Position numbers and translations under genes: made by a program. DNA of 64,000 nucleotides, taken from Nostocoides sp. F2B08. Its GTDB lineage: Bacteria; Actinomycetota; Actinomycetes; Actinomycetales; Dermatophilaceae. Below are positions 48,135 through 63,147 of this stretch, one piece after another. Each line of letters begins with the position of its first letter. Position 1 is the first letter of the stretch. The stretch is taken from positions 149,167-213,166 of the forward strand of contig NZ_WESE01000007.1 in NCBI RefSeq assembly GCF_009184895.1. Reading direction: 5' to 3'. Below the pieces are notes generated by a model that was not told the DNA's origin, did not search any database, and saw nothing but the letters and a program-made list of their open reading frames with translations.

Positions 48135-48234
48135 GGTCTGTTCCCTCGCGTTCGTGTACCGGCGTCTCTCACCGGCGGGACAACCTTCGACCGTGACCAG
48201 ACCCAGCCGCATGATGCAGCCGTCCCGCTCGGGT

Positions 48235-48249
48235 CGGGAACAGTTCCCG
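48235..48249. promoter_or_regulatory. Palindrome shared with TCS 3, copy 1
   Basis: CGGGAAC-A-GTTCCCG is a perfect palindrome with 7-bp arms, in the flank TCGGGAACAGTTCCCGGGA. It is 42 bp before the histidine kinase start and 101 bp before the divergent membrane-protein start. Its right half joins a second palindrome TTCCCGGGAA (48244-48253). See the matching copy at 59852-59866. Confidence 0.65.
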
Positions 48250-48290
48250 GGAAGGCTGACGGCTGCGGGCACTGCCGCCACAATGGCGAC

Positions 48291-50159
48291 ATGGTCTATG
48301 GAGCCGTCGCGGTGGGCGCTGGGGTCCCGCTCGCCTTGGGGATTCTCCTGGCGTTGCGCAGTGCCCAGCGTCGGATCGCGTGGCTGCTGCTCGCACATGG
48401 CGTATCGGTCGGGTTGCTGCTGGGTGCCTCTCGGACCACGGGCACAGGCACGAGCGCGCAAGCGCTCGATCAGCTGGCGCAAGGCGGCTGGATTCTCCTC
48501 TTCCTGTGGCTGGTGCTGTTGGCCTACCTGGTGCCAGATGGCCACCTTCTTTCCGCGGGCTGGCGGTCGTGGGTGGGCGCCGGTGTGGTCGGGGCGGTGC
48601 TGTTCGTGGTCGGGGCCGCCGGTGACGCGGACAGCTTCCGAGAGGAGCACCCCGGCCAGGATCCTCCCCTGGGCGCGCTTCCTCAGCCGCTCGCCGACGT
48701 TCTCGGTGTGGTCGGTCTCGCTCTGGTGGTGCTGCTGTTCATCGGCTCCGCGATCGCAGTGGGCGCCAGGTTGAAGAGCGCTGTCGGCGTCGTGCGGACG
48801 CAGCTGCTGTGGCTGGTCTGGGGTGCTGTGGCTGTTCCGCTCGGACTGATGGTGGGCTGGACCAACCACTTCCTCCTCGGTGACCACGACTGGCTGACTT
48901 ATGCCGCGTTGACCGTTGTGGCCGTCGCGTTGCCGAGCGTCATCGCCATCGCCGTCCTGCGGCATCAGCTCTTCGACATCCAGGTTGTGTTGAGCCGAAC
49001 GCTGACTTATGCAGCCCTGATGGTGGGCCTGGTCGTGGTGTACGCCCTGGTGCTCTTCGCCGCCGAGAGGGTCGGCGGCACGAGCACCCTTGGCGGCCTG
49101 CTGGCGGTCGGTGTCGTCGCGGTCGCGGTCTCCCCGGCCCACTCCTGGCTGCGTCGGCGAATCGAACGTGCCGTCTACGGCTACCGATCCGATCCACACC
49201 GGGCACTGCGGCTGCTGGCCGACCGCGCCGAGGCCGCTCACGCCGAGACGCTCTCCGCGTCCATCACCGACGCCGTGGCGGAGGCGCTGCGCGTGGAGAA
49301 GGTGTGGGTCGACACCGGCAACGCCATCCACGAGGAGCACGTCGTCCGGGTCCCACTGCGACACCGCGGTCAGGAACTGGGCGACCTGGCGCTCGAAGTG
49401 CCACCCGGTCGGCGACTCTCGTTAGCCGACATGTCGCTGCTCGATGACCTAGCGAGATACGCCGCGGTCCTGGTCAAGGCAAGCCAGGCGGGCGACCAGC
49501 TTCGCGTGTCCAGGTCCCGGATCGTCGCCGGCCGCGAGGAGGAACGTCGCCGGCTTCGCCGCGACCTGCACGACGGAATCGGCCCGTCGTTGGCGGCCAT
49601 CGTGCTGATGCTCAACGCGGCCGGATCCCGCACCGACAGCACCGAACGCAGCGCGCTGCTGGACGAGGCCCGCGCAGAGGCCAAAGACGCCATCGCCGAG
49701 GTTCGGCGGCTCGTCGACGACCTGCGCCCGGCCGCGATCGACGAGGTCGGCCTCCTCGGCGCGATCCGCCAGCGCGCCATGGGCCTGTCCGGCGAGCTTG
49801 CCATCGAGGTGACCGGACCCACAGCTCTGCCCGCCCTGCCCGCGGCGGTCGAGGTCGCAGCGTACCGGATCGCATCCGAGGCCATGACCAACGTCGCCCG
49901 GCACTCCGGGGCGTCCCGCTGCCGAGTCACCATCGCCGTCAACGGCTCGTTGGAGCTCACCATCGCCGACAACGGGCACGGCGTCGAGCAGCCCATACAC
50001 GGCGGTCTCGGATGGACCTCCATGCGGGAACGTGCCGCCGAGCTCGGCGGCACGTGCACCATCTCCTCTCGCACCCCCAACGAAGGCCTCATCGTGCACG
50101 CCATCCTCCCGCTCCACGACACACCGCACCAACCAGCCGACATCAAGGCCGAGCGATGA
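48291..50159 (+). CDS. Sensor histidine kinase, NarL/DesK type (TCS 1)
   Basis: Membrane kinase of 622 residues. About eight hydrophobic segments occupy 1-290, then a GAF-like region (about 310-400), and a HisKA_3 dimerisation domain with H427 in RRRLRRDLHDGIGPSL. The ATP-binding domain shows IASEAMTNVARHSGASRC, ADNGHGVEQ and GGLGWTSMRERAAELGG. The stop overlaps the response regulator start by 4 nt. The stimulus is unknown; similar kinases in actinobacteria sense membrane or envelope stress. Confidence 0.93.
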   Translation: MVYGAVAVGAGVPLALGILLALRSAQRRIAWLLLAHGVSVGLLLGASRTTGTGTSAQALDQLAQGGWILLFLWLVLLAYLVPDGHLLSAGWRSWVGAGVVGAVLFVVGAAGDADSFREEHPGQDPPLGALPQPLADVLGVVGLALVVLLFIGSAIAVGARLKSAVGVVRTQLLWLVWGAVAVPLGLMVGWTNHFLLGDHDWLTYAALTVVAVALPSVIAIAVLRHQLFDIQVVLSRTLTYAALMVGLVVVYALVLFAAERVGGTSTLGGLLAVGVVAVAVSPAHSWLRRRIERAVYGYRSDPHRALRLLADRAEAAHAETLSASITDAVAEALRVEKVWVDTGNAIHEEHVVRVPLRHRGQELGDLALEVPPGRRLSLADMSLLDDLARYAAVLVKASQAGDQLRVSRSRIVAGREEERRRLRRDLHDGIGPSLAAIVLMLNAAGSRTDSTERSALLDEARAEAKDAIAEVRRLVDDLRPAAIDEVGLLGAIRQRAMGLSGELAIEVTGPTALPALPAAVEVAAYRIASEAMTNVARHSGASRCRVTIAVNGSLELTIADNGHGVEQPIHGGLGWTSMRERAAELGGTCTISSRTPNEGLIVHAILPLHDTPHQPADIKAER

Positions 50160-50797
50160 TCCGCCTCCTCGTCGCCGACGACCACCCCGCCTTCCGGCGC
50201 GGACTCCAATTCATGCTCGCCGACACCGACGACATCAGCATCGAGGGTGAAGCAGCCACCGGCGCTCAAGCCGTCGAGCTCGCCAACCAGCTCGCTCCCG
50301 ACGTCATTCTCATGGACCTTCGCATGCCCGACCTGGACGGCATCGAGGCAACCCGTCGGCTCAGCCGCAACAACCCCGCTCCAGCGATCGTCGTCCTGAC
50401 CATGTTCGAGGACGACGACTCGGTCCTCGCCGCGATGCGAGCCGGCGCCCGCGGCTATCTCCTCAAAGGCGCCGAGCAAGACGAGATCGTGCGGGCGATC
50501 CGCGCAGCCGCTGCAGGCGAGGCGATCTTCGGCCCACAAATCGCCCAGCGCGTCATCGACCACTTCACCCACAGCGCCCGCTCGACAACCACGGCGTTCC
50601 CCGCTCTGACCGAACGCGAACGGCAGGTCCTCGAACTCATCGCCGCCGGAAAGGGCAACGCCAGCATCGCCCACGAACTGATGATCAACCTCAAGACCGT
50701 ACGCAACCACGTCTCGAACATCTTCACCAAGCTCCAGGTCTCCGACAGGTCGGCCGCCATCGTCAGAGCACGACAGTCAGGACTGGGCGGCACCTAA
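50156..50797 (+). CDS. LuxR/NarL-type response regulator (TCS 1)
   Basis: Regulator of 213 residues. The receiver domain has the acidic pair D8/D9, the phosphorylation site D54 (VILMDLRMP) and a conserved Lys (GYLLKG); the C-terminal LuxR helix-turn-helix is TERERQVLELIAAGKGNASI. Its stop codon ends the operon. It probably binds the palindrome 48235-48249. Confidence 0.95.
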   Translation: MIRLLVADDHPAFRRGLQFMLADTDDISIEGEAATGAQAVELANQLAPDVILMDLRMPDLDGIEATRRLSRNNPAPAIVVLTMFEDDDSVLAAMRAGARGYLLKGAEQDEIVRAIRAAAAGEAIFGPQIAQRVIDHFTHSARSTTTAFPALTERERQVLELIAAGKGNASIAHELMINLKTVRNHVSNIFTKLQVSDRSAAIVRARQSGLGGT

Positions 50798-50819
50798 TCT
50801 GGGCGACGGAGGGCACGAG

Positions 50820-51050
50820 ATCAGGTCCGAGCGATTCAAGGAAGCCGCCCATCCGAGCGGCGATGTGTGGATGCACCACCCCGAGCTGCGCAAGGTCGCC
50901 GAAGTCGATGACGAGGTCCGTCAGTGGCTAGCCGAGACCTATGCCAACGCGAGAACGTCATCGCCCCACATGCTGCGCGACGCCAACCACAGTGCTGCAC
51001 TTCGCCGGAAGTCGCGGGGCAAAGCAGCGTTCAGCACCCGGGACGGATGA
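50820..51050 (+). pseudogene. Possible C-terminal fragment of a DUF5655-like protein
   Basis: A frame from about 50820 reads SERFKEAAHPSGDVWM, then PELRKVAEVDDEVRQWLAETYANA, which resembles the end of DUF5655 proteins where a hydrophobic strand precedes DDEVRxWLxEAY. No start codon or upstream part of such a protein is present, so it looks like a remnant; the frame continues 26 residues past the match. A GTG at 50865 could serve as a start for a 61-residue product. The 370-bp gap to the next gene holds nothing else I can identify. Confidence 0.35.
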
Positions 51051-51171
51051 GCGCTTTGTGTGCCGGTTTTGGTGCGTAGAGATGGTGCAGGTGACCCATG
51101 CGTCGGCCTATCTGATCGGGCGACGATGAGTCAGCCCGGGCAGACGGCCCGGCCGATAGGAGGACACCCGC

Positions 51172-51909
51172 ATGACCGCACAGCACCTTGCCGCCCCCGC
51201 GGAGCTGAACGAGATCCAAGCCCTGGACACCCGGCCGCCGCTTTCCCGCGCCGCCCAACTGGCCGTCGCAGCGAGCCTGATCGCGGCCGGCCTCCTCAAC
51301 GGAGGTACCCAGTTCGTCGGCCATCTCGTCATCGATGACGGCAGCGGCGACTTCAGCGACCAGATCCGCTGGGGCGTCGAGCACCCCGTCTTCCACGGCG
51401 TGGAGCAGTTCGCGCTCTTGGCGAGCATGGTGTTCCTGCCGGTCGCCGTCCTCGGTCTGGCCCAGGTGACGCGGCACCGGGCGCCGCGGCTGACCGCCGC
51501 CGGGATCGTGCTCACCTTGTGGGGCTTCTGGGGTTTTCACAACATCCTCGCGCTGGGCTACACCGCCGGGACGATCGCACCGTCCGCGCTCGGGGTGGAT
51601 GCCGCGGTCCGGCTCAATGACGCCTTTATGGAGGACCCCGGTTCGGTGTTCGGAGCGTTGGTGCCGCATCTGCTCGGCTCGTTCCTGGGCCTGATCCTGT
51701 TGGCGGCGGCGGGCTGGCGTGGCAGGAGTCTGCCGCGCATCCCGCTGGTCCTGCTGGTCGCGTTCCTGCTCTGGGACTTCCTCCTGCCGCCGGCCGGGCC
51801 GCTGGAGGCACACCTGCTGCTGCTGATCTGCTTCGGTTGGCTCGGAGTGCACGTGGCGCGGATGTCGTGGCAGGAGTGGAGCGGGACGGCGGAGGTCGGA
51901 ACATACTGA
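51172..51909 (+). CDS. Multi-pass membrane protein upstream of TCS 2
   Basis: Product of 245 residues with about six membrane segments and a short soluble N-terminus; I cannot name the family. It resembles the other kinase-linked membrane proteins in size and spacing of helices. The stop is only 4 nt from the start of the second kinase, so all three genes form one operon. ATG 51172 follows an AGGAGG ribosome site. Confidence 0.7.
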   Translation: MTAQHLAAPAELNEIQALDTRPPLSRAAQLAVAASLIAAGLLNGGTQFVGHLVIDDGSGDFSDQIRWGVEHPVFHGVEQFALLASMVFLPVAVLGLAQVTRHRAPRLTAAGIVLTLWGFWGFHNILALGYTAGTIAPSALGVDAAVRLNDAFMEDPGSVFGALVPHLLGSFLGLILLAAAGWRGRSLPRIPLVLLVAFLLWDFLLPPAGPLEAHLLLLICFGWLGVHVARMSWQEWSGTAEVGTY

Positions 51910-51913
51910 TCCC

Positions 51914-53605
51914 GTGAGCGGGAGCACTCCGGCGAGGGTGGGGCCATGGTCGGCGGCGGCGGCTACCATCGCCCTCTCCCTCGGCGCCGCGTGGGTTGCC
52001 GGGACCGGGTCCGGCGGGGCGGCGGGGCTGGACGGGGTCGGTCTGAAGCTTCTGGTGATGCCGCTGCTGTGGGCCATCCCCGGGGCGCTCATCGCAACCG
52101 TCGGCCCGCGGCTGCTCGGCTGGTCGATGATCGCGGTGGCGGCACTGTTCGCCCTCTCCGCCCTGGCAGGTGCGAGCCTGCAGGCCGGCGTCACCTCGGG
52201 TGCACCCTGGTGGATCTGGTATGCCGACCGGGCCTCGGCACTGATCGTGCCGCTGACGCTGGTGGTGCTGCTCTTGCTGCCGGACGGACGGCTGCCATCG
52301 CGGCGCTGGCGACCCTGGGCTACGGCTGCGGTCGGGCTCCAGGTTCTGGCCGTGGCCGCCTGGGCATCCCTGCAGGGTCCGGCGGCGGCCTCGGACTCCT
52401 CGCTGCCGGCCTGGACGGGTGAGCTCGCGAACCCGGTCGGACTCCTCCCCGGCGGTTGGGGCGAGCCCTTACAGAGCTGGGCCGAGGTCGCGATCCAGGT
52501 GCCGTTCCTGCTCGTGCCGGTCGCGGTATACGGGAAGCTGCGCGGCGCCCACGGAGATACCCGCCGGCGGGTGGTGAGCGTCCTACTCGCCGTCGTGACC
52601 TTCACGCTCCTCATCGTCGTAGGACGCTGGCTCTGGCCGGCCGGCGGCGATCTGCTCGACATCGTCGCAGGCGGGCTGCTGGCTCTGACCGTGACGGCGA
52701 GCGTGCTCCGCTTCCGCCTGGGCTGGGTGGACCGGGTCGTGGGCCGGCTGACCGTCTTCCTCGTGCTCGCCACGGTGCTCGCGCTCGGGTATGCCCTAGT
52801 CGTCTCCCTCGCGTCCACTGCTGGGTCGCAGCTCTCACCGGTCGCGGTCGGCCTCATCGCCGCCGCGGTCACCCTCGCCCTAGCCCCGGCCCGGGCCCGC
52901 CTCCAGGACGCGGTCGACTGGGCCCTCTACGGCGACTCGCGCGAGAGCGCCCGGGTGCGGCGCCTGACCGAAGAGCTGGCCTCCAGCCGGCACCAGCTCG
53001 TCACCGCCCGGGAGGAGGAGCGGGTGCTGCTGCGACGTCAGCTCCACGACGGCCTCGGGCCGACGCTTGCAGGAGTCGCGATGCAGCTGCGCGACCTGGA
53101 CCAGATCGTCCAAGAGGATCCCGACCTGGCGCGGAGCAGACTGGACCGCCTGGCGCAGGCGACCCATCAGGCCCTGGACGAGGTGAGACAGATGAGCCGG
53201 CAGCTGCGCCCGCCGGCACTGGACGAGCTCGGGCTGGTCGGTGCCCTCGAAGAGGTCGCCGAGAGCCTGGGCCTCGACTGCGTGGTGGTCAGCGAGAACC
53301 TCGGCGTGCTCCCGCCTGGACCCGAGGCCGCCGCATACCGGATCGGGCGCGAAGCGTTAACCAACGTCGCCCGCCACTCCGGATGCACGTCGGCGCAGCT
53401 AACGATCGCCCGACACCGCGACGGCGTGCAGCTCGAGGTGCGTGACCATGGTGCCGGGCGCAGCGGCCCAACCGGAGTGGGGACGCTGTCCATGCGGGAG
53501 CGGGCACACGAGCTCGGCGGGTCGCTCTCGATCGAGGACACCGACGGCGGAGGGACCACCGTCCGCGCCTGGCTTCCCCTCCCCGCGCAGGGAGGGATCC
53601 GATGA
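51914..53605 (+). CDS. Sensor histidine kinase, NarL/DesK type (TCS 2)
   Basis: Membrane kinase of 563 residues; no GAF-like insert, which distinguishes it from kinases 1 and 3. The N-terminal eight-helix region includes the sequence LLLPDGRLPSRRW, also found in kinase 3. The phosphorylated residue is H378 in LLRRQLHDGLGPTLAGV, and the ATP domain has IGREALTNVARHSGCTS and VGTLSMRERAHELGG. GTG 51914 is the start. The response regulator overlaps the stop by 4 nt. Confidence 0.93.
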   Translation: MSGSTPARVGPWSAAAATIALSLGAAWVAGTGSGGAAGLDGVGLKLLVMPLLWAIPGALIATVGPRLLGWSMIAVAALFALSALAGASLQAGVTSGAPWWIWYADRASALIVPLTLVVLLLLPDGRLPSRRWRPWATAAVGLQVLAVAAWASLQGPAAASDSSLPAWTGELANPVGLLPGGWGEPLQSWAEVAIQVPFLLVPVAVYGKLRGAHGDTRRRVVSVLLAVVTFTLLIVVGRWLWPAGGDLLDIVAGGLLALTVTASVLRFRLGWVDRVVGRLTVFLVLATVLALGYALVVSLASTAGSQLSPVAVGLIAAAVTLALAPARARLQDAVDWALYGDSRESARVRRLTEELASSRHQLVTAREEERVLLRRQLHDGLGPTLAGVAMQLRDLDQIVQEDPDLARSRLDRLAQATHQALDEVRQMSRQLRPPALDELGLVGALEEVAESLGLDCVVVSENLGVLPPGPEAAAYRIGREALTNVARHSGCTSAQLTIARHRDGVQLEVRDHGAGRSGPTGVGTLSMRERAHELGGSLSIEDTDGGGTTVRAWLPLPAQGGIR

Positions 53606-54252
53606 GCCCAATCCGGGTCGTTCTCGTCGACGACCACCCCATGTTCCGAGAGGGCGTGCGCTTCACGCTCCACCGAGCCGACGACATCAAAGTGGTCGCC
53701 GAGGCCGCAGACGGAGCCGCCGCGATCGCCGCCGTCGCCGACACCGCTCCGGACGTCGTTCTCATGGATCTCGCGATGCCGGGGATCGGCGGCCTCGAAG
53801 CGATCACGAGGATCCTCCACGACCACCCGAGCGTCGCCGTCCTGGTACTGACCATGTCCGAACACGACACAGCCCTCTTCGCTGCGCTGCGGGCCGGTGC
53901 ACGCGGATACCTCGTCAAAGGTGCACCCGGTCAGGAGATCGTCTCGGCGATCCGCTCGGTCGCCGCAGGTCACGTCCTGATCGGCGCGCCCGTCGCGGCC
54001 CGCACCCTCGAGGTTCTCACCGACCCCGGCCCGCCGGGGTCCGCGGACTTGGGCATCGACTACGGACTGACCGAGCGCGAGCATGAGGTGCTCGGACTCC
54101 TCGCCCGCGGCCTGACGAACCAACAGATCGCAGACCGACTCGTCATTTCACCAATAACCGCCCGAAATCACGTGAGCAACATCTTGACGAAACTCCAGCT
54201 ACGCAGCCGCCGCGACGTCATCCGCCGTTTCGGACGCCACGAAAGATCCTGA
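53602..54252 (+). CDS. LuxR/NarL-type response regulator (TCS 2)
   Basis: Regulator of 216 residues with D56 (VVLMDLAMP) as the phosphorylation site and an ending LuxR domain LTEREHEVLGLLARGLTNQQI. It closes the membrane protein-kinase-regulator operon. No copy of the TTCCCG palindrome lies near its genes, so its DNA target differs from the other two systems or is elsewhere. Confidence 0.94.
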   Translation: MSPIRVVLVDDHPMFREGVRFTLHRADDIKVVAEAADGAAAIAAVADTAPDVVLMDLAMPGIGGLEAITRILHDHPSVAVLVLTMSEHDTALFAALRAGARGYLVKGAPGQEIVSAIRSVAAGHVLIGAPVAARTLEVLTDPGPPGSADLGIDYGLTEREHEVLGLLARGLTNQQIADRLVISPITARNHVSNILTKLQLRSRRDVIRRFGRHERS

Positions 54253-54271
54253 GCACAGGCCCCACGTCTGC

Positions 54272-54297
54272 AGCGCGGGCATGGATCGGCCTGCGCT
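54272..54297. terminator. Hairpin between TCS 2 and the convergent glycosyltransferase
   Basis: AGCGCGGGC pairs with GCCTGCGCT-type sequence (9 bp including one G-U pair) around an 8-nt loop. It lies 20 nt after the regulator stop and 74 nt before the glycosyltransferase stop, so it may end transcription from both sides. Confidence 0.45.
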
Positions 54298-54370
54298 CCT
54301 GCGCGATACGTGAGTCACTTCGCCGGGTGCCGGGCTGGGTGCCGGCCGCGTGGGACTGCGACGGACCGGG

Positions 54371-55561
54371 TCAGTTGGGGGCGGCGGTGTCGGTGATGCG
54401 GCCGATTTGGTCGACGACATCGGCCGCCTCTGGTAGTGCCGCGATCTGCTCGGCGATCTCGCGGGAGCGGATGCTGAATGATGACTCCGCGAGCACTCGC
54501 GAGACAGCCGCTGCCATGGCCGGTGTCGCCTCGGGCCCGCCGTGGATGGTGACTCCGGCACCCATGGCCGAGACCGCCTCGGCGTTCAGGTACTGGTCGG
54601 TGCTGAACAGGGGTATAACGACTTGGGGTAGACCGGCCGAGAGCGCGGACATAGTCGTGCCGAACCCGCCGTGGCTGACAACGGCAGCGGCGAGCGGCAT
54701 GAGATCGTCCTGGGGCCAGAACTGCTCGACACGGGCATTGCCGGGAACGTCGGCGAGGGCGACTTCTCCGCTGGCGCCTGTAGTCAACAGCACGCGCACG
54801 GGTAGGGCGGACAGTGCGTGCAATGTCGAAGTGAACACCTCCCGCAAGTGGTCCAGACCCCCCGCGACGGTTCCGAAGGTGACGTACACCAGTGGGGCCT
54901 CCGGGTTACCCCACGAACCCGGGAGGCGGCCCGGCCCTGTCTCACGCCGGGCCCGGAAGCGAACCACGTCACGCACCGCCGACGCGGCGCCGGTCGAGTG
55001 GCCAGCGGCTCGATCCATGGCTTCGGGAACCAGCGTGAACACCGGCGACGCTGCGGCCGCCTGCAACAGAGTCCCGTGGGTGAGCCCCGCCACCTCGTCC
55101 AGCTCCGCCAGAGGGTCAGTCAGGTGCACCAATCCCCACTCCATCAGGGCCGCCACCGCAATGGCCACCTCGATGTGGGCGATCCCAGCCGCTTCTGCGG
55201 CAGCCAGCGAGGCGAGCTCGGCCGGATCTCGCAGTACGACATCCGGACGCCACGCCCTCACCATTCTCTTGACGTCGGGGAACGCTGCCTGAGCGTCCAG
55301 CCGCCCGAACACCTCGGCCATCACGGTGCCGTTCGCCTCCTCTGTGCTCATCCGCGCCAGCGAGGCAAAGACAGCGTGCATAGCCTCGGGGGACGGTTCA
55401 GCAAAGGGAACATGCTCCAGGCCGGCCCGCTGCACCGCACCGGCAAACGAGGCGGGGGCGGCGACCCGCACCTCGTGCCCGGCAGCCCGGCAAGCTTGCG
55501 CGAGCACCCGGAGCGGCCCGAAATGGCCCTCGCCGGCGGTCGTCGAGCAGAGCACCCGCAT
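54371..55561 (-). CDS. Glycosyltransferase, MGT/UGT family
   Basis: GT1-type glycosyltransferase of 396 residues; such enzymes transfer a sugar from a nucleotide donor to macrolides, lipids or other small molecules. The donor-binding segment SHGGFGTTMSALSAGLPQV followed by PLFSTDQYLNAEAV is clear, and the N-terminus has STTAGEGHFGPLR. It stands alone between the TCS 2 operon and a TA module. Substrate unknown. Confidence 0.9.
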   Translation of the reverse strand: MRVLCSTTAGEGHFGPLRVLAQACRAAGHEVRVAAPASFAGAVQRAGLEHVPFAEPSPEAMHAVFASLARMSTEEANGTVMAEVFGRLDAQAAFPDVKRMVRAWRPDVVLRDPAELASLAAAEAAGIAHIEVAIAVAALMEWGLVHLTDPLAELDEVAGLTHGTLLQAAAASPVFTLVPEAMDRAAGHSTGAASAVRDVVRFRARRETGPGRLPGSWGNPEAPLVYVTFGTVAGGLDHLREVFTSTLHALSALPVRVLLTTGASGEVALADVPGNARVEQFWPQDDLMPLAAAVVSHGGFGTTMSALSAGLPQVVIPLFSTDQYLNAEAVSAMGAGVTIHGGPEATPAMAAAVSRVLAESSFSIRSREIAEQIAALPEAADVVDQIGRITDTAAPN

Positions 55562-55646
55562 CTCCGCAGTCTCCCACCGCCCGCGCCCAATAGGCAGCCC
55601 CCTTCCGCCGGGTATCGCTCGTCAAGCACACGGCCTGATCCCAGAT

Positions 55647-55662
55647 GGTATCGTTTGATATC
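55647..55662 (+). promoter_or_regulatory. Promoter/operator of the second TA module
   Basis: GGTATC (55647-55652) and GATATC (55657-55662) are inverted arms with one mismatch and a 4-nt spacer, followed by a GGAGGT ribosome site (55663-55668) and the antitoxin ATG. The position suits an antitoxin-bound autoregulatory operator. Confidence 0.4.
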
Positions 55663-55675
55663 GGAGGTGGTTTCG

Positions 55676-55897
55676 ATGGCCGATGTGCTAATCCGCGATA
55701 TCCCGGAATCGGTGCTCGCGGCGGTGGATGCCCACGCGTCCCGGTTGGGGCTGTCGCGGGTGGAGTACATCCGGCGACGACTGGCCGCGGACGCGGCGAC
55801 CTCGGGAGCCTCGGTCTCCGCCGCTGATCTGCGTTCCTTCGCCGACAAAGTCACGGACCTGGCCGATCCGCAGGTGATGAGCGCGGCGTGGCAGTAA
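55676..55897 (+). CDS. vapB: Ribbon-helix-helix antitoxin (VapB type)
   Basis: Antitoxin of 73 residues. The N-terminal RHH motif is [21 protein letters not shown]; the C-terminal part is a toxin-binding tail. Its stop codon (TAA) overlaps the toxin GTG start, so they are coupled. Start codon is supported by the GGAGG site. Confidence 0.9.
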
Positions 55898-56298
55898 CCG
55901 AATGGCTGATCGACAAATCGGCCCTGGTGCGCCTGGCGGACAGCCCCGACACCGAGCTGTGGGCAGAGCGCATCGAGCGAGGCCTGGTCCGGATCACGAC
56001 CGTGACGCGTCTCGAAGTTGGCTACTCCGCCCGCAGCGGCCACGACGCTCGCTCGATGTTTACCAGCCCACCCGTCTCGGCGATGCCGGTGGAGTACCTC
56101 ACCCCGAGCATCGAGGACCGCGCCGTACAAGTGCAGCTGCTGCTAGCCGGACAGGGTCAACACCGCGCGCCCTCCATCCCCGACATCATCATCGCCACAA
56201 CAGCCGAACTGGCCGGGCTGACCGTCCTACACATGGACAAAGACTTCGAGCTCATCGCCACCATCACCGGCCAGCCCACCGAGCGACTCCGGACATAG
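55888..56298 (+). CDS. vapC: PIN-domain toxin (VapC type)
   Basis: Toxin RNase of 136 residues starting with GTG. PIN acidic residues: D9 (LIDKSAL), E43 (RLEVGYSAR), D99 (PDIIIAT) and D117/D119 (MDKDFELIA). The subtype (IDKSAL start) differs from the first PIN toxin here, so the two modules were probably acquired separately. Confidence 0.92.
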
Positions 56299-56391
56299 GG
56301 CACTGCGCCGGAAGCCGACCGCTGCTTAAGAAGGATTCGAACTCGCTGGGTTCTTCGCTACGGGCCGACCACATAGCGGGTGGTGGGTCGC

Positions 56392-56754
56392 CTAGGGGTT
56401 CTGGATCAGTCTCAGGAGGGTGCAGTCGGGGTCAACGAGTGCGCCGATGCGTAGGCCGGAGTCCTCGAGCACGGGCCGGTGTACGCGTGGCCAGCCCGTC
56501 GTCGATTCGGGTATGCCCGCCGCCAGACAGGTCTCGAAGAACCCGTCCACGTCGTCGAGGCGAAGGCAGCAGGAGAACGCGCTCGACTTGGGATCGAGCT
56601 CGGCGTGGGGGAAGAACTCAAGGGCGACATCGCCTCGGGCGAGGATCATCCACCCCGGGTCGCGGTAGGCCGTGGTGAAGCCCACCGCGGCGAAGAACGC
56701 CGCCGTCGTCTCGAAATCTCGCGACGGCAGGTTCGGCGTGGCCCTATCCACCAT
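56392..56754 (-). CDS. VOC-family protein, bleomycin-resistance-like
   Basis: Single-domain VOC protein of 120 residues (glyoxalase/bleomycin-resistance fold), with the stretch LPSRDFETTAAFFAAVGFTT at the start, ALEFFPHAEL and a C-terminal VDPDCTLLRLIQNP. Such small proteins either bind glycopeptide drugs or act as metal enzymes; metal ligands are not decisive here. It stands alone. Confidence 0.85.
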   Translation of the reverse strand: MVDRATPNLPSRDFETTAAFFAAVGFTTAYRDPGWMILARGDVALEFFPHAELDPKSSAFSCCLRLDDVDGFFETCLAAGIPESTTGWPRVHRPVLEDSGLRIGALVDPDCTLLRLIQNP

Positions 56755-56895
56755 GACCCGAGGCTAGTGCTTGACCCCGGCGGTCCGCTCGGGCGAAACA
56801 GACCCGGCGTAGAGCTGGCGAAAGGCGCTGCACTCCGCCGGCTGTTGCATGACCATTGCCCTGCCAAGATCCGTACCTCGGGCGGTGGAGCCCCG

Positions 56896-57198
56896 TCACA
56901 ACCGCTCTCTCGGAGCTCCGAGTTCCCACCAGTCCTGGAGTGGCTGGTCCTTGATCATCGCCGCTGCGACCTCCACGTGAAGGTGGTTGCAGAACTTCCA
57001 CAGCTCCTTCGCCGCTCGCGAGTACTGGAAGAGGACACGATCGATCTCGAAGGCATCCATTTCACCGACACGGTAGCGATCGACAGCCTCCCCGACGCGA
57101 GCAACAAGCGCGCCCAGCTGCGCGGCGTGATAGTCCGCGACCACCGCACGCGCAGCTTGCCGCTCCGACTTGCTGGACACGGAAACGAGGCTACTCAC
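56896..57198 (-). CDS. Hypothetical conserved actinobacterial protein
   Basis: Product of about 100 residues. The C-terminal 80 residues form a conserved helical unit (SERQAARAVVADYHAAQL ... FQYSRAAKELWKFC) that I recall as a common actinobacterial hypothetical protein, often near mobile DNA; I cannot name a function. GTG 57198 or 57180 are the possible starts. The upstream 250 bp hold no gene on this strand. Confidence 0.6.
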   Translation of the reverse strand: MSSLVSVSSKSERQAARAVVADYHAAQLGALVARVGEAVDRYRVGEMDAFEIDRVLFQYSRAAKELWKFCNHLHVEVAAAMIKDQPLQDWWELGAPRERL

Positions 57199-57450
57199 GA
57201 CCGGCCCACAAGGGTCGCCTTCCCGTAGCCACACTCGCTCGACTGCGAGACCATCGACCTGACCCACTTCGCCGGCTGCTGGGCGCCACTCGGAGGCCGT
57301 CCCGATACCAGTGGCACTACGTCGCGATACGGGTTGACCAGGTACGTCGGGGCTGGCGGGGTGGGGATCGGTCGAACCAAACCGATCGGGGGTCGCTCGG
57401 AGTCGCCTCCGCACCCCCTGCGTGAACAGTCAGGCCATAGGGTTCCGGAT

Positions 57451-57843
57451 GTGGGACGCACCTACGCCGACGCCGAGCAGCTCCGAGCGGTCTTCTCCGA
57501 GATGTTCGACGACGTCGCCGACGCCGATGGGATGGACGGACTCGTCGCACAGCAGATGGTGATCAACTTCCGCTTGCACGATCCCTCCGTCGACATTTGG
57601 GTCGACGGCAGGACCCGGCCTGTCGCCACGACCTTCGAACCCATCGGTGTCGATGCGACGCTCACCGCCGAACTGAGCGCCGACTCGATGCACAACCTGC
57701 TGCTGGGCACGCTGCCGTTGGGCAAGGCGGTGCTCTTCCGCAAGCTGAAGGTATCGGGTTCCAGGTCAGGAGCACTCAGGCTCGAGCCACTCCTGCACGC
57801 TTGCCAGGCCGTCTACCCCGGGATCGTCGACAGGCGCCTGTGA
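57451..57843 (+). CDS. SCP2 sterol-binding domain protein
   Basis: Small protein of 130 residues resembling the SCP-2 sterol carrier family: a lipid-binding pocket protein with VINFRLHDPSVDIWVDGR and a C-terminal helix bundle (SADSMHNLLLGTLPLGKAVLF). GTG 57451 is the start. A GATCGGT-N8-ACCGATC inverted repeat lies 64 bp upstream. It precedes the methyltransferase gene by 80 bp. Confidence 0.8.
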   Translation: MGRTYADAEQLRAVFSEMFDDVADADGMDGLVAQQMVINFRLHDPSVDIWVDGRTRPVATTFEPIGVDATLTAELSADSMHNLLLGTLPLGKAVLFRKLKVSGSRSGALRLEPLLHACQAVYPGIVDRRL

Positions 57844-57923
57844 GGTGCCCTTAGGGTGAAAGCGACCTCATCGGTTGGGGCCCCAGGCCCGGGCCCGGAG
57901 ATCTCGAGGCTAAGGTCGAGCGC

Positions 57924-58547
57924 ATGCACGAGCACAAGGGATTTGACACCGAGGCCGCGACCTGGGACGACGATCCCAGCCACGAGGAGCGGCAGGTGGC
58001 GGTGGCCCGGGCCATCGTGGAGGCACTGGACCTCAACCCCCGGATGAGCGCGCTGGACATCGGCGGCGGCACGGGTCGGTTGACCATCCTGCTTGCCCAC
58101 CGGATCGGCTCGGCGGTCGTGACCGACCCGTCCGCCGGAATGGTGCAGGTCGCACGGCAGCGGATCGAGGAGGCCGGACTCGGCGACCGGCTGCGCGCTG
58201 TCCAAGCCGACCTAGCAACAGACCGGCTCAGTGGGTCCTACGACGTGGCGTGGAGCTCCATGGCTTTGCACCACGTGCAGGACCTGGATGAGCTGCTGCG
58301 GTCTGTCGCCGAGCTTCTCGTCGACGGTGGCCGGCTGGCCATCGCGGACCTTGACGAGGATCCCGACGGCGCCTTCCACGCCGACAAGGTCGACTTCGAC
58401 GGACACCACGGATTCGACAGGGAACGCCTCACCGAGCAGCTGACCCGCGCCGGCTTCGCCAACGTCAGCTTCGTTGACGCCACGACCATCCTCAAGGACG
58501 ACCGGGACTTCGGCGTCTTTCTGTGCACCGCCACCAAGGATGCATGA
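57924..58547 (+). CDS. SAM-dependent methyltransferase, class I
   Basis: Methyltransferase of 207 residues. The SAM-binding glycine-rich motif is LDIGGGTGRLT (44-54), followed by the acidic post-I strand (VTDPSAGMVQVARQRI) and the motif IV stretch YDVAWSSMALHHV. Substrate cannot be told. It is similar to MerR-locus or UbiE-like small methyltransferases. Confidence 0.9.
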   Translation: MHEHKGFDTEAATWDDDPSHEERQVAVARAIVEALDLNPRMSALDIGGGTGRLTILLAHRIGSAVVTDPSAGMVQVARQRIEEAGLGDRLRAVQADLATDRLSGSYDVAWSSMALHHVQDLDELLRSVAELLVDGGRLAIADLDEDPDGAFHADKVDFDGHHGFDRERLTEQLTRAGFANVSFVDATTILKDDRDFGVFLCTATKDA

Positions 58548-58685
58548 ACCCCGGGGAGATCAGTGCGTCGGACGGCAGGCTCGAGCGGGGTATGGCATAC
58601 CGGGTGCGTCATAGCGCCGGGTGACGCGCGCGGTGTTTCAGCACGCGCTCGGGGCACTCGTCGTGACCTGACCCTCCCATCGCGA

Positions 58686-58698
58686 GGGCGCAGCGCCC
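58686..58698. terminator. Short hairpin between convergent genes
   Basis: GGGCGCAGCGCCC folds into a 5-bp stem with a 3-nt loop between the methyltransferase and the convergent membrane-protein gene. A second weak stem (GGTAT-GGC-ATACC) lies near 58590-58602. Both are marginal. Confidence 0.3.
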
Positions 58699-58728
58699 CT
58701 GACGCTGCGGCCGTGCCGGTGCCACCGA

Positions 58729-59388
58729 TCATCCGTCCTTGAGCACCTCGCGGGCGACGACGGCCATACCGACAGCGGTCAGGCTCCAGGCGAAGAAGTC
58801 TAGCTGTGGGCTGCCGAAGACAACGAGGGCGACGAAGTGCAGTGGCTGGGAGACGGCGATGGCCCACGCGGCCCAGGCGGGGATGCGTCCTGAGCGCAGC
58901 AGCGCGAGGCCGAGCAGGACGGTGCCGATCACGTGTCCGAGGACGAAGACGCCGAGTGCGACGTCGATGACGGGGTGTCCCGCCTCGACTACTGCGACGG
59001 CCTGGTCGGCGGTAAGCCCGGCGGTGGTGGCTCCCCAGAGCAGGTGGTCCGCGCCGACGAACATCCCGAGGGAGAGGTAGCCGGGCACGGCCAGTGCGAC
59101 TGCCCACGTGGTCAGTCTGGGCGCCCCGGCCCTGGCGATCCCGGCGGCTGCGATCAGACCTGGGACGAGGGTGAGGACGCCGATGTAGGCAAGCCACAAC
59201 ACAGCGCTCTGCTGTCCGGGCTGGGCCTGGACGGCGTCGACCATCCCGGGGGTGTCGCTGGCCTTGAAGTACGGCAGGACGAGCCGGAGCACCGCGATCG
59301 CGGCCGGGCCGACCGGCATCAGTAGGGCCACGCCCCAGGTGGTCAGGGGTATGCGTTCGGTGCGGGGTGGCGCGAGCGTCGCGGTCAT
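58729..59388 (-). CDS. Multi-pass membrane protein of TCS 3 (distal gene)
   Basis: Product of 219 residues with about six hydrophobic segments, of unknown family. It resembles the membrane protein at 51172 in length and helix pattern. Adjacent ATGs at 59388 and 59391 are both possible starts; either overlaps the stop of the smaller membrane-protein gene. It is probably a target of the TCS 3 regulator. Confidence 0.7.
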   Translation of the reverse strand: MTATLAPPRTERIPLTTWGVALLMPVGPAAIAVLRLVLPYFKASDTPGMVDAVQAQPGQQSAVLWLAYIGVLTLVPGLIAAAGIARAGAPRLTTWAVALAVPGYLSLGMFVGADHLLWGATTAGLTADQAVAVVEAGHPVIDVALGVFVLGHVIGTVLLGLALLRSGRIPAWAAWAIAVSQPLHFVALVVFGSPQLDFFAWSLTAVGMAVVAREVLKDG

Positions 59389-59744
59389 CATGCCACCGCC
59401 GGCTGGCTGGCGCGGGCCGTGAGGAGCACGGCCGCTGCGGTGAGGACGACGATGGCGCCGGCAGCCGCCTGGGCGCCGCCCGGAGCGTCAACGAAGAAGG
59501 CCGGCAGTGCGGTGACCGCCGCCAACACGCGCAGCCCGATCAGGAGACGCAAGGATCTGGCGGGGTCGCGGTAGCCCTGGACCACCAGCGCGAGCGAGGC
59601 GGCACCGAGCAGAGCCGCCAGGGCGGCTACGGCATACGGGGGCGACTCTCCGTCGGTGAGGGCGAGGGTGGCGATGTCCCCGAACGAGAGAAGCGCGAAG
59701 ATCGCCAACCCGAGGTTGCGAGTGGTCAGAGCGGAGTGATTCAT
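59388..59744 (-). CDS. Small membrane protein divergent from TCS 3
   Basis: Product of 118 residues with about four hydrophobic segments and no clear family. It heads a two-gene operon with the 58729 gene and is divergent from the third histidine kinase, with the palindromes at 59797-59866 in the 176-bp gap between. Confidence 0.7.
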   Translation of the reverse strand: MNHSALTTRNLGLAIFALLSFGDIATLALTDGESPPYAVAALAALLGAASLALVVQGYRDPARSLRLLIGLRVLAAVTALPAFFVDAPGGAQAAAGAIVVLTAAAVLLTARASQPAVA

Positions 59745-59851
59745 GGCAGCGGTCCCTTCATGCGGTGGTTGTCGTCCACAACGATGCAGTCGCTCGGTTC
59801 CCGCAGAGGAGAGGAGAGTTCCCGACCTGCCCCGGACTTCCCCGGGTCGGT

Positions 59852-59866
59852 CGGGAAGACTTCCCG
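59852..59866. promoter_or_regulatory. Palindrome shared with TCS 1, copy 2
   Basis: CGGGAAG-A-CTTCCCG, in the flank TCGGGAAGACTTCCCGGGC, differs from copy 1 at 3 of 19 positions and keeps the palindrome by compensating changes. It is 55 bp before the kinase start and 108 bp before the divergent membrane-protein start, close to the geometry of copy 1. Extra TTCCC half-sites lie at 59797-59803, 59818-59824 and 59837-59844. Confidence 0.65.
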
Positions 59867-59920
59867 GGCCGGGGGCCGGTAGCCGGCGGTAGTCTCGGCC
59901 CAGGCCGCAGGAGGTGTCCA

Positions 59921-61840
59921 GTGCGTAGTAGGTTCATCGCCGGAACGCTCGGTTGCGTCACGGTCCTGGCCGCCGTGGGGGCGGTCGTCTGCGTCGTAGC
60001 GCTCGGCTGGACCTTCACAGTCGCCCTTGAGTCGTTCGTGATCAGCAACATCGTCATCGGCGTCAGCTTCGGGCTGTGCGGAGCGCTGATCGCGTGGCAC
60101 CGGCCACGCTCTCCGCTCGGCTGGATGTATGCCGTGGGCGGCACCCTGCAGACTCTGAGCGCGCTGGCACTCCCGTTGGCGGAGGTGCTCGCCGAGCGCG
60201 GCGTCGCCGAGTGGAGCATCCGACTGTCCGTGACCGTGTTCCAGTGGGCATGGCCGATCAACATCACCATGATCCCCATCTCGCTCCTGCTCCTGCCCGA
60301 CGGGCGCCTGCCCTCTCGGCGATGGCGACCGGTGGCCGTCGCCCTGGCCATGCTCACCCCGCTCTTCGTGCTCGGAAGCGGACTATGGCCGGAGCGACCG
60401 CCCGGCCTGCCGTCGGCCTACCTGACCGTGAGCGAGAGCACCTATACCTCGATGTCGTGGCTGTGGACCGCCAGTGAATACTGGTGGTCCCTCTCCGTAG
60501 TGATCGGGGTGGTGTGTCTTGGCCTGAGGTATCGACGCGGCGACGAGGTCGTTCGCCGTCAGCTCATGTGGCTGGTCGCCGCGATGGCGGTGATCGTCGT
60601 CGCGGTCATCCCGTGGTCCCTCGTCGCGGGCACGCCGTTGGCCGTGCTCTTCACGATCCCGCTCCTTCCCGCGGCCATCGCCGCAGGGGTGCTTCGCCAC
60701 CAGCTCCTCGACATCCGGCTCGTCGTGGCACGAGGGCTGACCTATGCCCTGCTCTCAGGACTGGTGCTGGCCGCATACGTCGCTCTGGTCGCGGTGCTCT
60801 CGGGCGTGGTGTCCGCGTTGGTCGTGGCGCTCCTGGCGCTCCCGCTGCGATCGCGGCTCCAGACGGCGGTCGACCGGCTGCTCTACGGCGAGCGCGGCGA
60901 CCCGCTTGAGGTGGCCACGCGTGTCGGCCGCTCTCTGAGCGCTGGCCTGCCGGAGACTCTGGAGGAGATCAGGAGGACGCTGCGCCTGCCCTATGTGGGC
61001 GTCGTCAGCGACGGTGTAGAGCTCGCGGCCGGGGGCGAGCTGACGGGGCCATCTGCCGAGCTGCCGCTGGCAGAAGGCACGCTGGTCGTCGGCCTGCGCA
61101 GCGGCGAGAGCCGTCTCGACCCGGCCGACCGTCGCGTGCTGGTGCTACTGTCCGGACCGCTGTCGACGGCGGTGCACGCGACCACGTTGCTCGAGCAGCT
61201 GCGCGTGTCTCGCGAACGGCTCGTCGTCGCCCGCGAGGAAGAGCGGCGTCGGCTCCGACGCGAGCTGCACGACGGTCTCGGACCGCTCTTGACCGGGGTG
61301 GCACTCTCGGCCGACACCGCCGCCAACCTCGCCGGCCCGGCAGCCAACCCTGCGCTCACGGCGCGGCTCTCAGCGGTACGCTCCGACACCCGCTCCGCGA
61401 TCCAGGAGGTGCGCCGGATCGTCGACAACCTCGGCTCGCCTGCCCTGGACGAGCTGGGCCTCGTCGAGGCGCTACGCATCCGGGCCGACCAGCTCAAGCG
61501 GCGCTCCGATGGTGCGGCACTGCGCGCCGCTGTCGAGGCAGACCCGCTCCCTCCGCTGCCGCCCGCCGTCGAACAAGCCGCCTATCGGATCGCCACCGAG
61601 GCCCTCACCAACGTCATTAGACACTCCCGCGCATCCTCGGTCCTGGTACGCCTCCACGCCGACGACACCGGCCTGCACTGCGAGATCCTCGACGACGGCG
61701 TCGGCACATCGGTCTGGCGCCCCGGCGTCGGCATCGCCGGGATGCGCGAGCGGGTCGCCCAGCTCGGCGGCAGCTGCGCGGTTGGTCCCAGTGCCCGTGG
61801 TGGGGAGGTGAGGGTGTGCCTGCCGATGGCTCTGGTGTGA
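59921..61840 (+). CDS. Sensor histidine kinase, NarL/DesK type (TCS 3)
   Basis: Membrane kinase of 639 residues starting at GTG 59921, 5 nt after an AGGAGGT site. About eight hydrophobic segments fill 1-300 with LLLPDGRLPSRRW in a loop; a weak GAF-like region (about 330-420) precedes the HisKA_3 domain with H450 (RRELHDGLGPLLTGV). The ATP domain has IATEALTNVIRHSRASS and GIAGMRERVAQLGG. It is most similar to kinase 1. Confidence 0.93.
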   Translation: MRSRFIAGTLGCVTVLAAVGAVVCVVALGWTFTVALESFVISNIVIGVSFGLCGALIAWHRPRSPLGWMYAVGGTLQTLSALALPLAEVLAERGVAEWSIRLSVTVFQWAWPINITMIPISLLLLPDGRLPSRRWRPVAVALAMLTPLFVLGSGLWPERPPGLPSAYLTVSESTYTSMSWLWTASEYWWSLSVVIGVVCLGLRYRRGDEVVRRQLMWLVAAMAVIVVAVIPWSLVAGTPLAVLFTIPLLPAAIAAGVLRHQLLDIRLVVARGLTYALLSGLVLAAYVALVAVLSGVVSALVVALLALPLRSRLQTAVDRLLYGERGDPLEVATRVGRSLSAGLPETLEEIRRTLRLPYVGVVSDGVELAAGGELTGPSAELPLAEGTLVVGLRSGESRLDPADRRVLVLLSGPLSTAVHATTLLEQLRVSRERLVVAREEERRRLRRELHDGLGPLLTGVALSADTAANLAGPAANPALTARLSAVRSDTRSAIQEVRRIVDNLGSPALDELGLVEALRIRADQLKRRSDGAALRAAVEADPLPPLPPAVEQAAYRIATEALTNVIRHSRASSVLVRLHADDTGLHCEILDDGVGTSVWRPGVGIAGMRERVAQLGGSCAVGPSARGGEVRVCLPMALV

Positions 61841-62487
61841 TCCGAGTCCTCGTGGCCGACGACCATCCGGTCGTCCGCTCCGGCCTCGTCGGAGTCCTCA
61901 CATCCCTGGGCGGGTTCGAGGTCGTCGCCGTGGCCGTCGACGGCCGCGAAGCGGTGCGCGAGGCCGTGCTGCACCGACCGGACGTGGTCCTGATGGACCT
62001 GAACATGCCGGAGACCGACGGATTCACCGCAATCCACCAACTGGCCCGAGCCGCACCGTCGGTGCGGGTCTGCGTACTCACCATGTACGACGATGACGAC
62101 TCCCTCTTCGCCGCCGTCCGCGCCGGCGCACACGGCTACCTCCTCAAGGGCGCCGAGCAAGAAGAGATCGCCCGCGCCGTCCGCGCGATCGCAGCCGGCG
62201 AAGCCATCTTCGGTCCAGGCATAGCCGTCCGGGTACTCCACCAGCTGACCGCACCCACAGCCGCGCCAGCCCCGAACCCCTTCCCCGACCTGACCGGCCG
62301 CGAGCTCGAGATCCTCGACCTACTGGCCAGCGCGACACCCACTGTCGTCATCGCACAACGGCTCAACGTCACCCCCAAGACAATCAGCAACCACGTCTCC
62401 AACATCCTCACCAAGCTCCACGCCAACGACCGCACCCACGCCGCGATGCTCGCGCGCGACGCGGGACTAGGACAGACCGACACCTAA
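61837..62487 (+). CDS. LuxR/NarL-type response regulator (TCS 3)
   Basis: Regulator of 216 residues with D54 (VVLMDLNMP) as the phosphorylation site, HGYLLKGAEQEEIARAV near the end of the receiver (close to RR 1) and the LuxR helix-turn-helix LTGRELEILDLLASATPTVVI. The GTG at 61837 overlaps the kinase stop by 4 nt; a GTG at 61816 is possible. Confidence 0.94.
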   Translation: MIRVLVADDHPVVRSGLVGVLTSLGGFEVVAVAVDGREAVREAVLHRPDVVLMDLNMPETDGFTAIHQLARAAPSVRVCVLTMYDDDDSLFAAVRAGAHGYLLKGAEQEEIARAVRAIAAGEAIFGPGIAVRVLHQLTAPTAAPAPNPFPDLTGRELEILDLLASATPTVVIAQRLNVTPKTISNHVSNILTKLHANDRTHAAMLARDAGLGQTDT

Positions 62488-62637
62488 CCCAGCGGCGGGC
62501 TTGGAAACGCCAGCCAGGTCACGCCCAGTAGGGATGGGCGACAGGTCCGGAAGCGACGATGTAGTTGAGTCACACCGCCGGGAGCCGACCGATCAAGCCG
62601 ATGGGGGGTGGAGCATAAGGGCTGGCACGCTGGTTGT

Positions 62638-63147
62638 GTGATCCTTTCCGAACACCGCGACCCGCGGATGGTGACGATTCGTCGTGGGGGGCTGCTCACC
62701 GATGCCGAGCACCATCTGCTGGCACTGTGGGCCGCCGAGTGTGCGGAGCACGTGTTGCCTCTGTTCGAGGCCGAGCAGCCGATGGACACCCGTCCGCGCG
62801 ACGCCATTTCTGCGGCACGCGCGTGGGCCGACGGCGAGATGAGGATGATGGAAGCACGAGCGGCGGGTGGTCACGCGATGGGTGCCGCTCGACCTCTGCG
62901 AGGAGCTTCCCGATTAGCTGCATACTCAGCCGGTCAGGCAGCCTGCGTGGCGCACGTGGCTGAGCACGACCTGGGTGCCGCCGCGTACGCCATCAAGGCG
63001 GCACAGGCCGCCGAACCGGACAACCCCGGCGCTGGTCGGCTGGAACGTGACTGGCAGCGCGCTCACCTCCCAGAACGAATCAGAGCTCTCGTTCTGGAGG
63101 ATCAGACCCGCCGCAACCCGATCTGCTGGTACGCCTTCAAAGACTGA
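62638..63147 (+). CDS. Putative immunity protein (Imm-5-like)
   Basis: Helical protein of 169 residues resembling the Imm-5 family: VTIRRGGLLTDAEHHLLALW, the Asp/Pro-rich segment EAEQPMDTRPRDAISAARAW, and repeated Ala-rich helices ending QRAHLPERIRALVLED. Such proteins are found with polymorphic toxins, but none is adjacent here. GTG 62638 is preferred; GTG 62608 adds ten residues. Confidence 0.6.
   Translation: MILSEHRDPRMVTIRRGGLLTDAEHHLLALWAAECAEHVLPLFEAEQPMDTRPRDAISAARAWADGEMRMMEARAAGGHAMGAARPLRGASRLAAYSAGQAACVAHVAEHDLGAAAYAIKAAQAAEPDNPGAGRLERDWQRAHLPERIRALVLEDQTRRNPICWYAFKD

Follow-up and report, generated by a model that had tools for sequence, protein, structure and literature searches.

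A conserved palindrome in the divergent promoters of two two-component systems of Nostocoides sp. F2B08, a candidate DevR-box-like operator

Why should two separate two-component systems (TCSs) of one actinobacterium carry nearly the same palindrome in front of their kinase genes, and which protein would read it? The question is raised by a stretch of 64,000 nucleotides of Nostocoides sp. F2B08 (contig NZ_WESE01000007.1, positions 149,167 to 213,166), hereafter the window, in which TCS1, TCS2 and TCS3 lie in a row. A preliminary description of this DNA had pointed to two 19-nt palindromes, one beside TCS1 and one beside TCS3, as a common operator. Both 19-mers are located where it placed them and agree at 16 of 19 positions, and the spacings that it gave to the flanking starts are correct within a base (measured as 42 and 55 bp to the kinase genes, about 100 and about 107 bp to the divergent genes). 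Each copy has a HisKA_3 kinase gene on one side and a divergently read membrane-protein gene on the other. We conclude, with a probability of roughly 0.8, that both palindromes represent a single conserved promoter element, likely a DevR-box-like operator that each system's own NarL-type regulator would bind and through which it would activate the kinase–regulator genes.

In its exact form, the element is rare. The inner 15-mer, CGGGAANNNTTCCCG, occurs three times in the genome of 4,509,588 bases, against an expectation of about 0.5 per genome (assuming the base composition of the window genome-wide) and zero copies of the reversed control pattern; the many random copies that had been named as grounds for abandoning the operator were not seen. 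Two of the three copies are the promoter sites, 11.6 kb apart, but the third lies inside a long coding frame, whose product we take to resemble a cell-wall-binding-repeat protein. In the window, GGAANNNTTCC is found at these two sites only. The rarity is limited to the exact form, as with three mismatches permitted the window count is 4 vs. 3.33 expected, which is not above chance. A looser form, CGGGA-N5-TCCCG, was discarded as a genome signature (25 copies vs. 29 for the reversed control), and an RNA hairpin was ruled out by position, since the divergent gene and the predicted kinase promoter both lie downstream of the dyad in their own directions of reading.

Conservation was followed through the genes beside the dyad, i.e., mem1 and mem3, the divergent membrane-protein genes of TCS1 and TCS3, and HK3, the kinase gene of TCS3. 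A mem1 search of 186 genomes of the family gave nine loci including the window's own. The dyad is present in L064–L069 as GGGAACAGTTCCC or GGGAACTCGTCCC, the TCS1 dyad being kept in its own promoter and in all five orthologues; in L070, whose mem1 has no TCS gene on its divergent side, it reads GGGAAAGACTCCC, and the partial mem1 matches L071 and L072 are without it. The HK3 search showed the dyad retained in the orthologues L087–L091, down to 46% identity, i.e., in TCS3 itself and in all five at 46% or above. A mem3 search, likewise of 186 family genomes, gave 16 loci, of which 15 have a TCS gene (kinase or regulator, read from the sequence) on the divergent side; an exact GGGA-N4-7-TCCC is found in 10 of the 16 and a one-mismatch form in three more, and L145, L147 and L155 have no dyad. 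Altogether, of 26 promoters belonging to orthologous or related systems, 22 have a dyad within one mismatch of GGGAA-N2-4-TTCCC, and in no case was such a dyad equalled by more than 4 of 100 dinucleotide shuffles. The 26 promoters comprise 15 mem3, nine mem1 and two HK3 loci, with the window's own two and near-duplicates included and L145, L147, L071 and L072 counted as misses; L155, which has no adjoining TCS, and L092 were left out. Lack of conservation in orthologous loci, another outcome named as fatal to the idea, is not what was found, and the site stands as a conserved operator-like element of TCSs rather than a chance repeat. At L145 (genome G104), the mem3 homologue faces a kinase gene that by eye appears shortened, and the dyad is degenerate; decay of the operator along with the system would fit.

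The conserved letters of the dyad are GGGA and TCCC. The compensating inner base pairs noted in the preliminary description are not general, since in several orthologues the bases at these positions do not pair (GGGAACTCGTCCC, GGGAAGATTTCCC and GGGAAAGATTCCC, for example). The spacer is N5 in TCS1 and the close TCS3 orthologues, most commonly N6 elsewhere and N4 in two loci.

When the promoters are anchored on the last TCCC of the dyad, a common architecture is seen. Among 16 loci, with an upstream half-site defined as at least three of the four letters of TCCC, an extra TCCC lies exactly 22 bp upstream in 14 (exceptions L091 and L149), and another is often found at 42–44 bp. Offsets other than −21 to −23 and −42 to −44 have TCCC in at most four loci, and 5000 random rotations gave at most nine at any offset; an earlier version with 19 loci had the −22 TCCC in 16. 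In most loci, the gap from the upstream TCCC to GGGA is 9 bp for N5 dyads and 8 bp for N6 dyads, and therefore the TCCC-to-TCCC period stays at 22 bp. The TCS3 promoter has four TTCCC in total, at 59798, 59819, 59838 and 59861. Downstream, a −10-like hexamer ([TC]A[TC]NNT or TANNNT) lies at +24/+25 in 11 of the 16 loci and at +31/+32 in the three TCS1-type loci. Elsewhere within +10 to +45 the pattern is found only twice (L154 at +13, L064 at +42). Within each orthologue group, most members agree in this distance to one or two bases. Should the hexamers be genuine −10 elements, the dyad centre would fall near −42 in TCS3-type and near −49 in TCS1-type promoters, and a promoter-proximal site overlapping the −35 region, as with the DosR/DevR box, is predicted. 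On the membrane-gene side, no hexamer occurs at constant spacing, the best offset being common to at most 3 of the 16 loci.

The loci for this analysis were selected for having a dyad; L145, L147, L071 and L072, which have no clear one, and L070, which is without a divergent TCS, were outside the set. The register of the dyad was assigned manually in L153, L154 and L156, the last of which has two one-mismatch dyads. An earlier set of 23 loci had included L131, L132, L133 and L036 (GGGAC), chosen by eye from 44 kinase loci; the repeat with 16 loci is without these and without the near-duplicates L066, L142 and L152, and L065 and L069 were never included. Those four kinase promoters form a clade with a GGGAC...ATCCC ladder, regulators with KTVRNNV and, in three of the four, CACACT at about +25.

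Seven mem1-like loci from other families (L110–L116), obtained in a class-wide search of 394 genomes, were first inspected after the patterns had been framed. Six of them have an HK1-like kinase on the divergent side. L110 (kinase at 60% to HK1) and L111 (46%), which belong to two different families, have the exact dyads GGGAAAGGTTCCC and GGGAAGCGTTCCC, with TCCC precisely 22 bp upstream and the hexamer, CAGACT or CACACT, precisely at +31, i.e., the full TCS1 form, although CAGACT matches only a slightly wider hexamer pattern.

Which regulator would read such a site? The closest described site is the DosR/DevR box. It has the consensus TTSGGGACTWWAGTCCCSAA (PMC2275270), Lys179, Lys182 and Asn183 of DevR contact bases (PMC4082495; PMC5861037), and DevR sites overlap the −35 region, bind cooperatively in a divergent promoter and activate (PMC3029386). 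RR1, RR2 and RR3, the regulators of the three TCSs, exceed the cut-offs of PF00072 and PF00196, i.e., they have a receiver and a C-terminal GerE helix-turn-helix domain of the NarL/FixJ (LuxR-type) class. K-T-I-S-N of RR3 aligns with K-T-V-K-N of DevR, and RR1 has, by the same helix pattern, K-T-V-R-N; equivalents of Lys179 and Asn183 are found in both, and Lys182 is replaced by Arg in RR1 and Ser in RR3. The genome has 33 GerE matches, five with a K-T-V/I-x-N helix, and GGGA[AC]-N3/4-[GT]TCCC lies within 4 kb of all five but of none of the 28 others, which include RR2 (p = 4.2e-6). TCS2, the internal comparison between the other two systems, has no GGGA-N4-7-TCCC in 50700–51960. Wherever the regulator beside a dyad could be read, its helix is K-T-V/I-x-N. 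The DevR alignment and this helix–dyad correlation suggest RR1 and RR3 as the best candidate binders, as the preliminary description had supposed.

The genome also encodes a DevR-like regulator (C40:3911) whose best match is DevR itself (202 bits). Just upstream of its gene lies GGGACGGTTGTCCC (N6; L197:3387-3400, G000:C40), with TAGCAT at +25, where TCS3 also has its hexamer. About 0.8 kb downstream of the DevR-like gene follows a gene for another LuxR-type regulator, whose helix reads K-T-V-x-N. Two of the five regulators with a K-T-V/I-x-N helix share this dyad. A proposed tie between the base that follows GGGA and the residue that follows the helix Asn was dropped, because GGGAA is also faced by regulators with N or T at that position.

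On these data, the following mechanism may be proposed. Dimers of the phosphorylated regulator would occupy the GGGA/TCCC dyad and, by cooperative binding, the half-sites upstream of it, on one face of the helix (22 bp being two helical turns). In TCS3-type promoters, with the dyad centre near −42, the regulator would touch RNA polymerase in the manner of a class II activator, leading to positive autoregulation of the kinase–regulator operon; in TCS1-type promoters, the dyad centre would lie near −49. The divergent gene (mem1) or genes (mem3-mem3b, with mem3b following mem3) would be under the same operator.

Several points weigh against this reading. The HK3 orthologue L092 (43%) is without the dyad, as are, at up to one mismatch, the other five mem1-like loci from other families, where the kinase is at about 42% or less or was undetected. 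Among 44 other kinase loci, a dyad with at most one mismatch near the estimated kinase start was found in three, one of which is the G010 locus already counted, in a scan that did not always cover the true promoters. An order-wide search with the mem3 alignment (396 genomes) gave 13 further loci, 12 outside the family, and none has a dyad within one mismatch of GGGAA/TTCCC, though seven face a regulator gene; one genus alone (L225, L226) has an exact GGGA-N6-TCCC, and L226 and L227 carry the hexamer at +25. The exact 15-mer failed as a diagnostic across relatives, none of its 11 sites in nine other genomes having a homologue of any of the eight query proteins within flanks of up to 1.5 kb per side. 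The ladder pattern is not enriched genome-wide (seven matches vs. six in the reversed control), and five of the seven are near no homologue of the query proteins. The hexamer and K-T-V/I-x-N patterns were themselves framed after inspection of the loci. The five of five in the helix correlation include two regulators that have one site in common; without RR1 and RR3, from which the test was derived, and with the shared site counted once, it becomes 2/2 vs. 0/28 (p = 0.0023), and when the dyad on C45, which is inside a coding frame and probably a chance match, is removed as well, one independent site is left. A looser GGGA-N5/6-TCCC lies within 1.5 kb of two other GerE regulators (L169, L189), the regulator at L147 has K-T-V-S-N and yet no clear dyad, and the DevR-like locus is without the −22 half-site. 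The TCS3-type element was seen only within its own family, and the TCS1-type also in two other families. Neither form is a feature of all NarL-type systems.

Are the membrane proteins outputs of these systems, as the preliminary description proposed? The divergent pairing is conserved, mem3-like genes facing a TCS gene in 15 of 16 loci and mem1-like genes of other families facing an HK1-like kinase in six of seven. In G206, moreover, the mem1 homologue adjoins the same TCS without being divergent and yet has its own dyad. Synteny and this dyad make it likely, as judged from sequence, that mem1 and mem3-mem3b are controlled from the same operator. However, the similar locus of G191, with the same gene order and a partial mem1 match, has no dyad, which, with the lack of a constant hexamer on the membrane side, leaves this part of the proposal supported only in part. 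The G206 locus (G206:C1:3126325-3129974; L150, L100, L070) has a mem3 homologue, regulator, kinase and mem1 homologue in a row, and the same order in G191; this row unites the membrane proteins that accompany TCS3 and TCS1 in the window. mem3 and mem3b probably form an operon. DUF4386 (PF14329, gathering cut-off 27.6) gives mem3b 14.3 bits and mem1 no match; the domain is carried by about a quarter of 120 listed mem3b homologues and by 2 of 120 listed mem1 homologues. A grouping of mem1 and mem3b as one family was rejected, as BLAST was negative and a profile comparison with hand-picked homologues showed no relation.

The preliminary description spoke of a single operator for both regulators and of possible cross-talk. 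The element is indeed conserved and operator-like, but a single one for both regulators is no more than a possibility, the inner bases and the hexamer distance (31 vs. 25 bp) being different, and so is cross-talk. In its full form, i.e., RR1 and RR3 forming one regulon in which each binds both sites and the kinases cross-regulate both sets of membrane proteins, we consider the idea rather doubtful. The outer half-sites and the spacer length are identical in the two sites, both helices read K-T-V/I-x-N-H-V-S-N-I, such promoter sites number only two in the genome, and in G206 one TCS has a mem1 homologue on one side and a mem3 homologue on the other. Yet the hexamer distance differs between the orthologue groups, with that of TCS1 kept even in other families, and the residues beside the contact residues differ (L-KTVR-N vs. 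P-KTIS-N).

The operator could also be real and repress, with the regulator on the dyad blocking RNA polymerase at one or both divergent promoters. This we regard as unlikely: a dyad between divergent genes and within about 110 bp of both starts would suit a repressor, and the +31 spacing of the TCS1 type is unlike the +24/+25 class, but a −10-like hexamer that keeps about 24 bp from the dyad, with a dyad centre near −42, better fits an activator, and the DevR sites that overlap −35 activate (PMC3029386). Still less probable is that a factor other than the neighbouring regulators binds, e.g., a global regulator of several TCSs. The half-site is short and GC-rich, and the link of RR1 and RR3 to it comes from sequence comparison; against such a factor, a NarL-type TCS is the gene class common to the loci (15 of the 16 mem3 loci), the recognition helix correlates with the dyad in the genome, and the site is like the DosR box. 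A chance or mobile repeat, for which the chance-level count at three mismatches might be cited, can be dismissed, being already contradicted by the three exact genomic copies (control zero) and by the site's conservation in front of orthologues in other genera and families.

How, then, does the proposed autoregulatory DevR-box-like operator compare with known systems? First, the element shares with the DosR/DevR box the inverted GGGA/TCCC half-sites, the N6 spacer beside many of the related systems, several sites per promoter, use in divergent promoters, the predicted −35 overlap and the K-T-x-x-N recognition helix. It departs from the consensus TTSGGGACTWWAGTCCCSAA in that TCS1 and TCS3 have N5 and GGGAA for GGGAC, and in the extra single TCCC half-sites 22 bp apart. 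Second, the sensors differ: DevS has haem-GAF domains, whereas HK1 and HK3 are multi-pass membrane kinases with no GAF domain by Pfam. HK1, HK2 and HK3 all exceed the Pfam cut-offs of HisKA_3 and HATPase_c and have 7–9 hydrophobic segments. Third, RR1 and RR3 are not DevR orthologues by best match, as among solved NarL-type regulators VraR, likewise with a receiver and GerE, is closest to both (168 bits for RR1, 140 bits for RR3). The NCBIfam cut-offs for NarL, MadR, MctR, MctS, MadS, LiaS and NarX were not reached, HK1, HK3, RR1 and RR3 lying below those of the MadRS, LiaS, NarXL and MctRS equivalogs in all scores shown (for the regulators, the best 25 of 115 and the best 25 of 103). Fourth, the three-component envelope-stress system EsrISR of Corynebacterium glutamicum similarly joins a TCS to an additional component (mentioned in PMC9960051); neither mem1 nor mem3 matches a Pfam family, and the likeness lies in the make-up of the system.

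A NarL-type regulator with a palindromic operator and autoregulation is thus a known kind of arrangement. For the N5 GGGAA variant, the 22-bp half-site ladder and the association with kinases and membrane proteins of these families, nothing stood out in the open-licence listings searched. More tentatively, and with clearly less confidence than in the operator itself, these features may amount to an undescribed operator code of actinobacterial NarL-type systems, in which a TCCC ladder at every two turns would lead to a GGGA-N5/6-TCCC dyad near −42/−49, would be read by K-T-V/I-x-N helices and would be shared by two paralogous systems of one cluster, the two sensors jointly setting the dose of kinase and small membrane protein. 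An operator rule of this kind (half-site, 22-bp phasing, −10 distance and helix signature) would allow targets to be predicted from sequence, and with two sites and two regulators, insulation vs. cross-talk of paralogous systems is directly testable. The features are collected in Table 1.

Table 1. Genes and promoter features at the TCS1 and TCS3 palindromes (window coordinates)
Feature	Coordinates	Strand	Remarks
mem1, divergent membrane protein, 221 aa	47469..48134	-	No Pfam match
TCS1 possible third half-site ACCC	48201..48204	+	Offset −44; 3/4 letters only
TCS1 second TCCC half-site	48223..48226	+	22 bp upstream of last TCCC (48245); same in L110, L111
TCS1 palindrome CGGGAACAGTTCCCG	48235..48249	.	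Core GGGA-N5-TCCC at 48236-48248; kept in L065-L069, L110, L111
−10-like hexamer CACAAT, predicted HK1 promoter	48279..48284	+	+31 from dyad
HK1, multi-pass histidine kinase	48291..50159	+	HisKA_3 + HATPase_c
RR1, NarL/LuxR-type response regulator	50156..50797	+	Recognition helix LKTVRNHV
TCS2	51914..54252	+	HK2 51914-53605, RR2 53602-54252; RR2 recognition helix PITARNHV
mem3b, membrane protein, 220 aa	58729..59391	-	Start overlaps mem3 end
mem3, divergent membrane protein, 118 aa	59388..59744	-	Four predicted transmembrane segments; no Pfam match
TCS3 extra TTCCC half-sites 59798, 59819, 59838	59798..59842	+	Successive spacings of 21, 19 and 23 bp, the last up to the TTCCC of the dyad
TCS3 palindrome CGGGAAGACTTCCCG	59852..59866	.	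Core 59853-59865; kept in L087-L089 (N5), L090, L091 (N6)
−10-like hexamer TAGTCT, predicted HK3 promoter	59890..59895	+	+25 from dyad
HK3 ribosome-binding-like site GGAGG	59910..59914	+	GTG start at 59921
HK3, multi-pass histidine kinase	59921..61840	+	HisKA_3 + HATPase_c
RR3, NarL/LuxR-type response regulator	61816..62487	+	Recognition helix PKTISNHV

Three further genes lie between or beside these systems. A 245-aa membrane protein with no Pfam or NCBIfam match is encoded directly upstream of TCS2 and co-directionally with it (51172-51909). A PIN-domain protein (55888-56298, 39.8 bits) is possibly the toxin half of a toxin–antitoxin pair, and an Imm5-like putative immunity protein (62608-63147; PF21805, 134 bits) is encoded just after TCS3.

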